A stretch of 64,000 bases of DNA from Candidatus Riesia pediculicola (GTDB lineage Bacteria; Pseudomonadota; Gammaproteobacteria; Enterobacterales; Enterobacteriaceae), in the NCBI RefSeq assembly GCF_002073915.1, contig NZ_CP012841.1, forward strand, positions 119,328 to 183,327, given 5' to 3'. How positions within the stretch are numbered: the stretch's first letter is position 1; every line of letters begins with the position of its first letter. A program made the position numbers and the translations under genes. The notes beneath the pieces were generated by a model. It saw only the letters and a program-made list of their open reading frames with translations. It was not told where the DNA came from and searched no databases. This document shows positions 5,910 to 49,696 of the stretch, one piece after another.

Positions 5910-7193
5910 TCACTTGACTTTTTTCCATACTATCAAAATAAAATCTTTCTTTCCCTTTCTGACAATAGAGTATCTCTGAAATATCTGTTCGTTTTCTGAA
6001 AAAATGAATCTTTTATCTTCGCATGGATGAAAATTAACTGAGATTGAGTGATTTTCGATCATATTTCTTGCTTGACTTTTGGAATCCAAAAGTTTAGATT
6101 TTACTAAAATTTCCTGAATGTCGTATCTTCTAGAAAGATCGATCTCTATCTTAGGAACTCCTAGTTTTAGAAAATTTCGAAAATCCTCCTCTTTGAATTG
6201 AGAAATTTTTTGGTATTCAAATATTTTTTTAGATATATCATGAGCCATATCTGAAAGATATTTTCCATGAATAATCTCAGTAACTTTTTTTGCTAAAAAG
6301 TACTGAATTTTTTTAGGATATTTTTTCATTTCTAAATTGTGTATTAGAGTAGAATTGCTCATTAAAAGAAGATAAAAAAACATCTGAGCGTTTCGATCAT
6401 CTAGATTAATCCAAAATTGATAGAAACAATATGGGCTTGTTTTTTTAGGATCTAACCAAATGTTATTTTTTTCTGTTTTTCCAAACTTTCTTCCTATCGA
6501 ATTTGTTATCAATGAAAAAGTCAATCCGAATACCTCTTTTCTAGATAATTTTTTTATTAGTTCGATACCGACAATAATATTTGACCATTGATCTGACCCT
6601 CCAATTTGGAGAGAAGCATGATAATCTGTATATAATTTGTAAAAATCGTACGCTTGCAATAAACTATAAGAAAATTCTGAGAAAGAAATTCCTTGACGGT
6701 TTTCTAATTTATTTTTAATTAGTTCTTTACGAAGCATATTTTTAATTGAAAAATTTCTTCCTACCGTTGTTAGAAAATCTATTATCTTCATTCTTTCAAA
6801 CCATTCAATATTATTGACAATGATCGCTTTATTTTTTTTGTGATTAGAATCGAAAAAGATTCCTATTTGGTTGTATATCTTTCTTGTCCAACTTTCTATT
6901 TGATCTACTTGATTTATTGATCTTTCAGAATCTCTGAAACTAGGATCTCCTATTAAGCTTGTTGCCCCTCCTACTAATATGATCGGTTTATGTCCGAAGT
7001 TTTGAAATGTTTTTAATAAAAACAATGGAATGAGATGACCTACATGCAAACTATCGGAAGTAGGATCGAAACCACAATAAAGAGTAATATTCTTTTTTAA
7101 AATAGTTTGAACTAATTTTTTCTCGTGAATCAACTGATCGATTAACTTAAGTTCTTTAAAAATTTTAATTAAATTTCTCTTTTCGTGTTTCAT
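5910..7193 (-). CDS. tyrS: Tyrosyl-tRNA synthetase
   Basis: TyrS is a cytoplasmic class I synthetase that charges tRNA-Tyr. Its 427 residues match E. coli TyrS (424). The class I HIGH motif is HVGHL (about residue 52), within YCGFDPTSDSLHVGHL. The KMSKS loop is the usual TyrS variant, seen here as KFGKTEKN (about 236). Tyrosine recognition residues are in SYSLLQAYDFYKLY and GGSDQWSNI. The C-terminal 65 residues form the S4-like RNA-binding domain. The start MKHEKRN precedes the conserved N-terminal helix. It is followed upstream by 270 bases of spacer before grxD, which is on the same strand. Confidence 0.96.
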   Translation of the reverse strand: MKHEKRNLIKIFKELKLIDQLIHEKKLVQTILKKNITLYCGFDPTSDSLHVGHLIPLFLLKTFQNFGHKPIILVGGATSLIGDPSFRDSERSINQVDQIESWTRKIYNQIGIFFDSNHKKNKAIIVNNIEWFERMKIIDFLTTVGRNFSIKNMLRKELIKNKLENRQGISFSEFSYSLLQAYDFYKLYTDYHASLQIGGSDQWSNIIVGIELIKKLSRKEVFGLTFSLITNSIGRKFGKTEKNNIWLDPKKTSPYCFYQFWINLDDRNAQMFFYLLLMSNSTLIHNLEMKKYPKKIQYFLAKKVTEIIHGKYLSDMAHDISKKIFEYQKISQFKEEDFRNFLKLGVPKIEIDLSRRYDIQEILVKSKLLDSKSQARNMIENHSISVNFHPCEDKRFIFSENEQIFQRYSIVRKGKKDFILIVWKKVK

Positions 7194-17353: not shown

Positions 17354-18433
17354 ATGTACAGAAATAAGAAATTAAGAATTGAATTTTTAGAAAATTTGAT
17401 TACTCCGTTTCAATTGTTCAACGAATTTCCTATTTCTTCAGATATTGCAAAGCATGTAAAAAAATCCAGAAAAAAAATAATGTCTATTCTATCAGGAAAA
17501 GATGAAAGATTATTGGTAATAATTGGTCCTTGCTCGATTCATGATTATTACTCTGTTTTTGAATATGCAAAGATGCTTTCTAAATTGTGTAGTCGTTATC
17601 GAAACCATTTACAAATAGTCATGAGAGCATACTTTGAAAAACCTAGAACTGTTTCTGGTTGGAAGGGATTAGTTTTAGATCCAGAAATTAATAATTCTTA
17701 CCTTGTAAATAAGGGTCTAAGAATTGCTAGAGAACTTTTGATTAACATTAATCAACTAGGATTACCTGTTGCAACTGAATTTCTAGACACAACAATTTTT
17801 CAATATCTATCAGATTTAATTAGTTGGGGTTCTATTGGTGCAAGAACAGTAGAAAGTCCAATACACAGACAAATGGCTTCTGCTTTACCATTTCCAATAG
17901 GATTTAAGAATGGAACAAATGGTGATATCAATGTAGCTATTAATGCAATTCTGTCATCTAGAATGAAACATGTTATTTTAAATCAAGATCAATATGGAAA
18001 AATAAAAATTTATCGAACTTCTGGTAATAAATACGGTCATATCGTAATGAGAGGAGGAAAAAAACCAAATTATAAGAAAAAATTTATAGAAATGACGTCT
18101 TATAAATTGAGAAAATTGAAACTTCCAGAAAAGTTGCTAATTGACTTGAGTCATGGAAACTGCCAAAAAAAATTTTATCAACAGATGGACGTCGCAAAAT
18201 ACGTAATAGATCAATTATGTAGCAAAAAAAGTCAAATCTTCGGAGTGATGGCTGAAAGCTTTCTAATAGAAGGGTCGCAGAAAATAAAAAATAAGAAGTT
18301 TTTAAGATATGGACAATCTATTACAGATCCCTGCTTAGGTTGGAAAGACACGGAAATTTTATTAGAGCTTCTCATCGAAGCATCTAAAATAAGAGCAGAA
18401 GAATATCAAAAAGTAAAACGTACCATTTGTTAA
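17354..18433 (+). CDS. aroH: DAHP synthase, tryptophan-type isozyme
   Basis: The enzyme joins phosphoenolpyruvate and erythrose-4-phosphate in the first step of the shikimate pathway. The 359-residue protein contains LLVIIGPCSIHD, MRAYFEKPRTVSGWKG, IGARTVESPIHR, GFKNGTNGD and DLSHGNCQKK. Details separate AroH from AroG and AroF: an ITPFQL-like opening, TSGNKYGHIVMRGGKKPNY, GVMAESFLIEG and YGQSITDPCLGWKDTE all follow E. coli AroH. It is preceded by a good ribosome site (GGAG 17342-17345, eight bases before ATG). Retention implies that chorismate or prephenate is still needed, for example for tRNA modification, quinone or folate. Feedback control by tryptophan is family knowledge, not shown here. 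Confidence 0.93.
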   Translation: MYRNKKLRIEFLENLITPFQLFNEFPISSDIAKHVKKSRKKIMSILSGKDERLLVIIGPCSIHDYYSVFEYAKMLSKLCSRYRNHLQIVMRAYFEKPRTVSGWKGLVLDPEINNSYLVNKGLRIARELLININQLGLPVATEFLDTTIFQYLSDLISWGSIGARTVESPIHRQMASALPFPIGFKNGTNGDINVAINAILSSRMKHVILNQDQYGKIKIYRTSGNKYGHIVMRGGKKPNYKKKFIEMTSYKLRKLKLPEKLLIDLSHGNCQKKFYQQMDVAKYVIDQLCSKKSQIFGVMAESFLIEGSQKIKNKKFLRYGQSITDPCLGWKDTEILLELLIEASKIRAEEYQKVKRTIC

Positions 18434-19955: not shown

Positions 19956-20549
19956 TTATATTAAAAAAAGAGTAGCTAACCAAAGAAATATAAAAAATCC
20001 GCTCGTATCGGTAATTGCAGTAATAATCACACTAGATCCGATCGCTGGATCTTTTCCAGACTTTATCATAATCAAAGGTATTGCTACACCAATTAAAGCA
20101 GCAGTCATCAAATTTAAAATCATGGCCAACGTCATAATAAAACTCATTTTTATACTATGATACAGAAAATAAATAATTATTCCTGCAATACTTCCACAAA
20201 ATATCCCATTAATTAAAGCAACTCCTAATTCTCTTAAAAAGAGAAAAGAAATGTTATTTTTTTTGACTTGATGTAATGCTATAGCGCGAATAATTATCGC
20301 TGTAGTTTGATTTCCTGTATTTCCTCCTACACAAGCAACTATTGGCATAAGTGTTGCTAGAGTTACAATATGAGAAATGGTATTTTCAAAAACTTCGATC
20401 ACCCTAGAAGCGATAAAAGCTGTACAAAGGTTAATTGTTGGCCAAATCCATCTGTTTCTAACAGATCTCCATATCGATGATGAGAAGATGTCTTCCACAT
20501 GATTCAATTTAGCTTGATTATATTTCTCTCTTTTAATGATTTTTTCCAA
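19956..20549 (-). CDS. mgtE: MgtE-type Mg2+ transporter, reduced to the membrane domain
   Basis: MgtE is a Mg2+ channel whose pore is formed by five C-terminal membrane helices and gated by cytoplasmic N and CBS domains. Here only the end of the CBS linker and the membrane domain remain (197 residues, against roughly 450 or more in complete MgtE). The pore signature is clear: LMPIVACVGGNTGNQTTAIIIRAIAL, then RELGVALINGIFCG, and DPAIGSSVIITAITDTSG near the end. The start is TTG at 20549. The frame stays open upstream for eight codons whose residues still look like the family linker, then hits a TAA at 20574-20576 and more stops. It may be a functional pore without a sensor or a decaying gene. 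Confidence 0.85.
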   Translation of the reverse strand: MEKIIKREKYNQAKLNHVEDIFSSSIWRSVRNRWIWPTINLCTAFIASRVIEVFENTISHIVTLATLMPIVACVGGNTGNQTTAIIIRAIALHQVKKNNISFLFLRELGVALINGIFCGSIAGIIIYFLYHSIKMSFIMTLAMILNLMTAALIGVAIPLIMIKSGKDPAIGSSVIITAITDTSGFFIFLWLATLFLI

Positions 20550-24436: not shown

Positions 24437-26516
24437 TTATTTGATTTTCCATCTTTTTATTATTCTTTCTGAAAGATTTCCATCTTTCTTACTTATACAT
24501 CGTGCTACATCTTTGACTTGGCAAAACAATTGAGCATCTCTCTTTAAATTGGCGATCTTAAAAGAAGGATGACCCTTCTGTTTAATTCCTAAATTTTCTC
24601 CAGGTCCTCTTATTGAGAGATCTTTTCTAGCTATTTGAAGACCTTCTAGATTTTTTTTGAACATATTTAATCTAAATCTTGCTGCTTTATTTATAGAAGA
24701 AGAATATAGAAGTATACAAAAAGATTCCTGATTACTATTTCTTCCTACTCTTCCTCTGAGTTGATGTAATTGAGATAATCCTAATCTTTCCGGATTCTCG
24801 ATAACCATTAGATTAGCATCTGGAATGTCTAAACCTACTTCTACTATTGTAGTGGAAATCAAGATTTGTATTTGGTTTCTTCGAAAATCAGAAATTATTT
24901 TTCTTTTATCTTCTGCTCTCATTTTTCCGTGAATCGATCCAATCTTTATTTTAGAAAAAGATTCTCTTAATTTATAATCGATTTCTACTAAAGATTTCAC
25001 ATCTGAATTTTTTGATTTTTCAATTACAGTACATATCCAATAAACTTTTATTTTTTTTTTTTTCGAATATATTTTTAATACGATAAATTAATTCATCTCT
25101 TCTGATATTTGAAATGATTATAGTACGCACTGGAATTCTTTTTGGATTATGAAGATTATCAATCGAAGAAGCATCAAGATTCGCATAAATTTGCATTGAT
25201 AGTGTTCTAGGGATAGGAGTGGCCGTCATAATTAACTGATGTACATGTGTTCCACACAATTTACCTTTTTTTAATAGCTTTGATCTTTGACTTACACCAA
25301 AACGATGTTGTTCATCAATAATAACTAAGGATAAAGAACAAAAATCAATTTTGTCTTGAAATATAGAATGTGTTCCAATAATTACTAAAGCTTTTCCTTT
25401 CTTAATTTCATCTAGTTTGGATTCGTAATTCTTTCTATCGGAATCTTTACATAATTGAATTACTCTTTTTCCAATTGGTTTTAGAATTTTTTTAAAGAAA
25501 TCTGCATGTTGTTTAGCAAGTATTTCGGTAGGAGTCATAAGAGCCACTTGCTTTTCGTTAGAAATAGCACAAAGTGAAGAAAATAAAGCAACTATCGTTT
25601 TTCCTGTACCTACATCTCCATATAATAACCTTTTCATAGGTACATTTTTTGATAAATCTGATTCAATTTCCTTGATTGCATTTTTCTGAGAATTTGTCAG
25701 AGAATATGGAAGATTTTGGATGATCTTCTTTTTAATTGATTGTTTTACAATTAACGGTGTTGCAGATAAAAGAAAGTTTCTTTTTTTTATTTTCAGAAAA
25801 GATAACTGAAAAGCTAGTAATTCCTCAAATATTAATCTTTTCTGAGCAGGGTGTTGATATTTCTTCAACTCGTTCAAAGAACATCTAGAATTTGGATGAT
25901 GAATATTTTTAATTGCTTGTTGAAATCTTATAAAATTTTTATTGAACGGTTTAGGAATTAAATCTTGAACTATGCAGTGATCAATCATTCTAATTGATTT
26001 TTTTATTATTTTATGAATCTTATCTTGACGTATTCCAGAAATATTTGGATAAATTGGAGTTAAAAAATTACATAAAGAGAAATTTGAAAAAGAGTTCAAT
26101 ATTTTATATTCGGGATGAATCATAAAAATTTTATTTTTTTGACGATATGCTTTTCCATATACTTGAATATAGGAATTCTTTTTAAAAAATTTCTTCCTTA
26201 GAAAGGAACTATTGAAAAATTTAACTATTAATTCTCCAGAACGATCCCGAAGATATATTTCAACTTGATTTTTTTTTTCTTTCAAATTTTTTCTGAACAC
26301 TTTTGCTGTTACAAAAGCTTCTTCTCCATTCTTCAACTCATTGATCAAAGATAATTTAGTTTGATCTTTATAGTTTTTAGGAAAATAAAAAATTAGATCT
26401 AAAATGCTATTTATTCCAGCACGATTTAACTTCCTTTTTTCTAAAAAACTGATTTTATTAATCTTTTCTACTGAAATATGATCCAAATCTTCTAGTTGAA
26501 TGCGATTTTTGTTCAT
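24437..26516 (-). CDS. recG: ATP-dependent DNA helicase RecG, split by a poly(A) frameshift
   Basis: RecG reverses stalled forks and processes Holliday junctions. The gene is read as two frames: 26516-25020 (residues 1 to about 487) and a second ending at 24437. The first has the wedge/OB region, Walker A GDVGTGKT and the DEQH box. The second has STTIVEVGLDIPDA, ENPERLGLSQLHQLRGRVGR and RGPGENLG. Between them is a run of 13 A (25051-25063). Removing one A restores a continuous frame, reading VYWICTVIEKS, which matches E. coli AYWVCTLIEES. The restored protein is 692 residues, against 693 in E. coli. Every other motif is intact, so transcript slippage could still yield active protein. Confidence 0.9.
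25051..25063 (-). repeat. 13-base poly(A) tract at the recG frameshift
   Basis: Thirteen consecutive T on the plus strand (A in the recG mRNA), following the codons for ATA TTC GAA. Twelve would keep recG in frame. It is the longest homopolymer that I noticed inside a gene here. Confidence 0.85.
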
Positions 26517-47680: not shown

Positions 47681-49696
47681 ATGTTTGGCAAGCTCACTCT
47701 AAAATCGATTCCAACACATGAACCAATTATAATGGTTACGATGGCAATTGTATCTTTGATTATTTTTTTTGTTCTATTTTTAATTACTTACACGAAGAGA
47801 TGGAATTGGTTGTGGAGCGAATGGTTAACAAGCTTAGATCATAAAAAAATTGGAGTTATGTATATTATTGTTTCTATAGTAATGTTATTTCGTGGATTTA
47901 CAGATGCAATATTAATGAGAACACAACAAACTATAGCTTCAACCAATTTTTTGGGAGGGAACGGATTCCTTTCATCAGATCATTATAATCAAATTTTTAC
48001 AGCTCATGGAGTGATAATGATATTTTTTATGGCTATGCCTTTAGTCATTGGATTAATGAATATTATTGTTCCTTTGCAAATCGGATCTAGAGATGTTGCG
48101 TTTCCTCGTCTAAATTCTATTAGTTTTTGGATTTTTTTATCTAGTGTAATTTTAATGAACTTATCTTTTTTTATCGGAGAATTCGCTAAAACTGGATGGC
48201 TAGCCTATCCTCCATTGTCTGAAAAAAATTACAGTCCAGATGTTGGAGTAGACTACTGGATATGGAGTTTGCAAATAGCTGGAGTTAGTACGACTTTGAA
48301 TGGAATTAATCTAATTACTACAATTTTAAAGATGAGAGCGGAAGGAATGTCTATGATGAAAATTCCAGTTTTTACATGGACTGTTCTTTGTTCGAACATA
48401 TTAATTGTCGCTTCTTTTCCCATATTAACCTCTACAATCGCATTGTTATCTATGGATAGATATTTAGGAGCACATTTTTTTACTAACGATGGAGGAGGAA
48501 ATATGATGTTATACATAAATTTAATATGGGCTTGGGGGCATCCTGAAGTATATATATTGATATTGCCTGCGTTTGGAATTTTTTCAGAAGTTACTTCTAC
48601 CTTTTGCAGAAAAAGTATATTTGGATATCAATCCTTAGTTTTAGCCACCGTTGCAATTACTGTAATGTCTTTTATGGTTTGGTTACATCATTTCTTTACA
48701 ATGGGATCTGGTGCAAAAGTTAATTCAATTTTTGGAATTGCAACAATGATTATTGCGATTCCAACTGGAGTGAAGATGTTTAATTGGTTATTTACCATGT
48801 TTAAGGGAAATATATCTTTTCGAAGTCCTATGTTATGGACGTTGGGATTCATAATAACATTCACAGTAGGAGGTGCTGCTGGAGTTCTTTTATCTATTCC
48901 ATCAGCAAACTTTTTTTTACACAATAGTTTATTTTTAGTTGCTCATTTCCATAATGTGATTATAGGAGGAGTGGTATTTGGATGTTTTTCTGGTATTACA
49001 TATTGGTTTCCGAAAGTTTTTGGATTTTTACTAAATGAAAAAATTGGAATTTTATCTTTTTCTTTATGGATAATAGGATTTTTATTAGCTTTTGTTCCAC
49101 TATATTTTTTAGGACTGGATGGGATGACTAGAAGATTGAGTCAACATATAAATCCTAGATATCATCTTTTATTATCCGTAGCATGTTTCGGAACCATTAT
49201 TATAGCGATTGGAATTTTATGTCAAATAATTCAAGTGATATACAGTTGTTTAAACAAAAATATGGATGTTACTGGAGATCCTTGGAATGGAAGAACATTA
49301 GAATGGTCAATTCGTTCTCCTGCTCCAGTTTATAACTTTGCTTTTCTTCCGAAAGTAAAGAGTCGTGATGATTGGTGGGAAATAAAAAAATCAAGAAAAA
49401 GAATGCAAGAGATGAAAAAAAGAAGATCCAAAGGTTATCGTTCTATATGTCTTCCAAATAGATCTTTTTCTGGAATATTGATCGGATTTTCTTGTCTTAT
49501 TTTTGGGTTTTCAATGGTATGGTATATATGGTGGATGGCGATATTTGGAATGAGTCTTATTTTAGTTTTTTCCATTCATTCTTTTTTGACAAAAGAAAAG
49601 ATGGTTTATATTGATTCCAAAGATGTTCAAAGAATAGAAGAACCTCTTAAAAATGTAAAGAATGTGTATGACATTAGGAGGACTGATGCTTTTTGA
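47681..49696 (+). CDS. cyoB: Cytochrome bo3 ubiquinol oxidase subunit I
   Basis: CyoB is the catalytic heme-copper subunit holding low-spin heme b, heme o3 and CuB. The 671 residues (E. coli 663) have 15 membrane helices. Ligand regions are visible: [15 protein letters not shown] (a heme b His), [17 protein letters not shown] (CuB His and the cross-linked Tyr), [10 protein letters not shown] (CuB His pair) and [16 protein letters not shown] (heme His residues). The quinone-site Arg and Asp of the N-terminal region ([11 protein letters not shown]) are present. It overlaps cyoC by 11 bases. Confidence 0.97.

Follow-up and report, generated by a model that had tools for sequence, protein, structure and literature searches.

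Genes frameshifted within poly(A) tracts have been described in Blochmannia (PMC3017870, PMC4389277) and in Buchnera (Tamas 2008 and Wernegreen 2010, as cited in PMC3017870/PMC4389277). Eight such genes, including dnaX and dnaG, are reported for B. vafer, and the same account puts full-length transcripts at 30% (PMC3017870); for aphid and ant symbionts, slippage at long poly(A) runs is reported to give 12–50% corrected transcripts (PMC5009743). The slippage mechanism is thus already known, and Riesia is a lineage for which no report of rescue by poly(A) slippage was found in the literature searched, most subscription papers lying outside that literature.

Candidatus Riesia pediculicola is the vitamin-making symbiont of the human louse. 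In its genome (G000) we analyzed a window, a continuous stretch of 64,000 nucleotides of the chromosome, in which the DNA-repair gene recG lies on the minus strand and is divided between two reading frames. The N-terminal frame (25020..26516, minus strand) encodes 498 amino acids with the wedge/OB domain and DEAD helicase domain 1, as recognized from its ORF, from Pfam and NCBIfam, and from alignment to the RecG of a second Riesia species (G001). It stops about nine codons past a run of 13 A, its last ~10 residues being out of frame. The C-terminal frame (24437..25048, minus strand), with helicase domain 2 and RecG domain 3, is open from 25087 to its end at 24437 and is shifted by one base relative to the first. 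The two frames meet at the A13 tract (25051..25063, minus strand; T13 on the plus strand), exactly where a preliminary description of this DNA had placed their junction. The frame-consistent RecG of 692 residues proposed there is confirmed (2,080 nucleotides from start to stop), and with no further stop in either piece the interruption is a single one. The junction residues, VYWICTVIE, had been said to match those of Escherichia coli; they resemble those of relatives but are not identical, since 12 of the 17 relatives compared, a set that includes one wrong ORF, have AYWVCTLIE. The break in recG, as deposited, is confirmed.

All the parts expected of a RecG are present, divided between the two frames: RecG_wedge, the OB fold and DEAD in the N-terminal piece, and Helicase_C and RecG_dom3_C in the C-terminal piece. 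On the NCBIfam RecG model NF008163 (692 positions) the N-terminal piece covers 4–483 and the C-terminal piece 485–682, with scores of 497.8 and 252.3 bits, neither of which alone reaches the cut-off of 796 bits. The gene shows a lone frame lesion in an A/T tract and is otherwise intact, and its tract of 13 A exceeds the approximately nine bases that mark the slippage class. The 60 relatives surveyed include one congener, G001, whose recG is a single open frame of 703 amino acids without a long run at the site. Each piece aligns to this RecG in one frame, the N-terminal piece with 66% identity over 481 aligned positions and the C-terminal piece with 63% over 200, and our count of the residue spacing across the site in G001 fits the frame-consistent reading. 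A comparison of the window with 72 kb of syntenic G001 sequence, based on G001 ORFs of 100 codons or more, found no window gene other than recG in two frames; a break near the end of a gene can escape this approach. Two other genes drew attention in this alignment. cyoB is one ORF in the window (47681–49696), whereas in G001 it lies in two frames near the 3' end (L140, about 17535–17834), and no long run accompanies the break. A short magnesium-transporter-like ORF, recognized by eye at 19956–20549, encodes 197 amino acids, compared with 211 in G001, and may be a conserved short form.

The conservation test on the two parts of recG drew on 16 of 28 relatives with a full RecG ORF identified by script, an antisense ORF (L014) being left out. 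Among columns with at least 90% conservation across the 16, changes confined to G000 and to G001 number nine and nine in the N-terminal part (213 columns), and nine and eight in the C-terminal part (124 columns). Columns invariant in all 16 deviate in 38 (G000) and 37 (G001) of 150 cases in the N-terminal part, and in 29 and 27 of 91 in the C-terminal part; the majority of these deviations are common to both Riesia species. Values of dN/dS against G001 are about 0.19 (N) and 0.21–0.22 (C). For comparison with 39 other window genes dN ranks were used, because saturated dS spoils the median and ranks of dN/dS; counted from the lowest dN, the N-terminal part ranks 24 and the C-terminal part 30. 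Branch lengths (G000/G001) are 0.33/0.22 for the N-terminal part and 0.54/0.40 for the C-terminal part; the latter evolves faster in the two species alike, and G000 shows no excess. By a rough neutral calculation, for which the constants were assumed, non-function of recG over more than about 5–10% of the branch is unlikely. No relaxation of constraint is seen in the C-terminal part, beyond the lesion; an error, or a lesion that arose very recently, would give the same picture. Thus the break is of recent origin, is rescued, is polymorphic or reflects an error of sequence, and an old recG pseudogene is unlikely. The preliminary description had named slippage, a very recent pseudogene and a sequencing error; its frame analysis was right, and for recG itself all three explanations still stand.

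The chromosome contains 57 A/T runs of at least 10 bases: 43 of 10, 11 of 11, two of 12 and a single one of 13, that in recG. In synonymous-codon shuffles of 42 window ORFs, A runs of 13 or more averaged 0.46, and at least one was present in 80 of 200 shuffles. The A13 run itself is rare yet not improbable, and the chromosome's run-length tail leads up to 13. Runs of 11 or more A in the window ORFs number only one, compared with 4.57 in the shuffles, so that such tracts may be selected against. The 7.7-kb plasmid (C1) has an A/T run of 15 (6425–6439) and others of 11–12, the longest lying outside any clear gene.

If the run of 13 were an error of sequencing or cloning, the tract in the genome would be in phase and recG would be an ordinary gene, which would account for the lack of relaxed constraint. 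Such errors fall in homopolymers, of which this is the longest on the chromosome, and a homopolymer error is possible because a single assembly of the species stands behind the recG lesion. The genome analyzed here has 582,126 bases, made up of a chromosome of 574,389 and a plasmid of 7,737; its chromosome is one base short of the 574,390 published (PMC8103877), and the published total, including the 7,737-base plasmid, is 582,127 (PMC4232544). For a second strain, from Bristol head lice, a genome (CP062474) and Illumina reads (SRR12717033) have been published (PMC8103877). However, the lesions in thrA and rlmE described below lie at the same tract and in the same phase in two separate genomes, so that the broken genes are not all likely to be errors, an argument that leaves recG itself untouched. 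For recG we regard an error as unlikely, but as an explanation to be taken seriously.

A second explanation is that slippage in the DNA has turned recG off in the sequenced lineage, as a very recent pseudogene or a slightly deleterious polymorphism, with decay or reversion to follow. No match to MutS_V or to a MutL-family domain was found in G000, each of these being found in 11 of 14 control genomes; tract slippage should therefore be frequent, which fits unstable tracts. The recG gene of G001 is in frame, and recG is dispensable in E. coli. Furthermore, the N-terminal piece of RecG has no match in four of the 60 genomes, three of them family members of 0.5–0.6 Mb (G007, G019 and G022), and reduced genomes can thus lose recG. 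A recent loss is countered by the lack of a second lesion and of excess change in the C-terminal part, and by the set of recombination genes. RecA and RuvC are present in G000 and RuvB was not found there, so that branch migration may now depend mainly on RecG. The best RuvB candidate sits in an ORF that reads as dnaX; the stretch itself scores 23.5 bits, and together with its neighbors it exceeds the cut-off of 27, at 33.2. This gene set is different from that of the Sodalis symbionts of feather lice, in which loss of RuvABC is reported always to be accompanied by loss of RecA and RecG (PMC11137140); Riesia keeps RecA. On balance, we consider a recent loss of recG rather unlikely.

Ribosomal frameshifting at the tract, or separate translation of two half-proteins, appears very improbable. 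Ribosome slippage is in general favored at A-rich slippery sites, and the C-terminal frame has a GTG at 25000; however, this frame, although open from 25087, has no start codon upstream of A13, and a simple −1 slip enters a frame without an open stretch of 100 codons. No stable structure lies directly downstream of the run (z −0.28), and a programmed ribosomal frameshift was rejected on this ground.

All 57 chromosomal runs were checked for reading frame, including a search for start codons before each run. On our reading five lie outside any recognized gene (1713, 15921, 83170, 362000 and 424531 on the chromosome, C2), and two more repeat runs already counted, in the second copy of a dnaG-like gene; 50 sites are left. 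The dnaG-like gene, recognized by eye, occurs twice, as inverted copies near the chromosome end (C2:556480–573210), each in frame with A11 and A10. At least seven genes are frame-broken at A/T runs of 10 or more: recG, priA, rlmE, miaA, prmC, cls and thrA. This is a lower bound, as breaks close to gene ends can escape the survey, the window included. These names (thrA standing for aspartokinase, rlmE for the 23S rRNA methyltransferase and cls for cardiolipin synthase) come from family scans, whereas others, such as dnaG and dnaX, were assigned by eye.

Four of the genes broken in G000 besides recG are in frame in G001. The break in priA is at A11 (C2:383755; L068:2006–2016), where G001 has 13 A; positions 3–170 of the priA family model (731 positions) lie on one side of the run and 168–730 on the other. 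In miaA, cls and prmC the run is A10, near the start of the readable gene (C2:248884, 287313 and 441209, respectively). miaA has no start codon before A10 in the catalytic frame and has A11 in G001, and prmC, which in G001 lacks the run, is in frame there.

The remaining two lesions, in thrA and rlmE, are common to both Riesia species, with the same tract and the same phase offset. In rlmE the run is A12 in G000 (C2:275954; L064:2005–2016) and A11 in G001, and an N-terminal stretch similar to its counterpart in relatives, as compared for segments from 12 out of 23, is in a different frame from the catalytic part; dN/dS is 0.27 over the 180 codons after the run and 0.47 over the 22 before it, the latter weak alone because the stretch is short. 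In thrA the tract is T10 in both species (G000, C2:519228, L110:1529–1538; G001, L158). Its dN/dS is 0.12 over 68 codons before the tract and 0.26 over 392 after, with dS about 1.2, and its N-terminal part contains four to eight stops when read in the other two frames. Translation of the second piece is a possible alternative for both genes: in the C-terminal frame of thrA a GTG (ATG in G001) lies about 15 codons past the run, and in G001, though not in G000, the catalytic frame of rlmE contains a TTG ahead of the run. The start of each enzyme would then be on a separate fragment. Since both sides of the thrA tract have been constrained through ~1.2 synonymous changes per site, it is difficult to account for this lesion unless some rescue takes place, and thrA is the best single case for rescue by slippage.

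For recG, the reading that we hold most likely, with modest confidence, is that the gene is still expressed, at a reduced level, through slippage of RNA polymerase on an unstable tract. On this explanation recG would be under selection, and drift in the length of its long A tract would have put the two frames out of step by a single base. In a cell lacking mismatch repair the number of A residues would wander in the DNA, and RNA polymerase would also slip on A13; a fraction of the transcripts would then carry the frame-joining tract length and yield full-length RecG, whereas the remainder would give the 498-residue product without helicase domain 2. Constraint on the C-terminal part, the failure to find MutS and MutL families, and at least six further broken genes, two of them shared between species, make buffering by slippage likelier for the organism, and the pattern suggests that the cell probably depends on slippage in the copying of A/T runs to make whole proteins. 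The lesion in recG is known from one assembly, so that its rescue is argued by analogy; error and recent loss together are nearly as likely as rescue. A point against rescue is that the lesion is not common to G001, which is in frame, although sharing between species is seen in only some of the known cases and is not required of the class. On short poly(A) runs examined in E. coli, RNA polymerase is reported to show no rescue by deletion of an A, and for long A runs bias in both directions is reported (PMC6260861).

More broadly, and tentatively, Riesia may obligately express thrA and rlmE (since before the species split), and recG, priA, miaA, prmC and cls in the human louse symbiont, through polymerase slippage. 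In that event transcription error would be a required step of gene expression, with both fork-restart helicases, RecG and PriA, included, and slippage-dependent expression, described in aphid and ant symbionts, would extend to a human louse symbiont, with two lesions predating the species split. A symbiont without detectable mismatch repair, and still needing PriA and RecG, would show the reach of error-prone transcription in a decaying genome. It would also be a warning that a gene annotated as broken in a genome of this kind may still work.

Reversible change of tract length in the DNA would switch recG on and off, as in homopolymer phase variation. However, the Riesia genes are housekeeping genes with no sign of selection for switching, and A runs of 11 or more are rarer than in shuffles, unlike the situation in phase variation. 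The Riesia cases resemble those of Blochmannia and Buchnera: the host cell of the lesion is an AT-rich obligate insect symbiont, a single indel lies in a long A/T tract, the gene is otherwise in frame without marked acceleration of rate, and some lesions are conserved between species. They differ in belonging to a louse-symbiont lineage and in the genes concerned (recG, priA, rlmE, miaA, prmC, cls and thrA). Transcript correction is reported to have been measured for some Buchnera and Blochmannia genes, whereas in Riesia it is predicted from the sequence.
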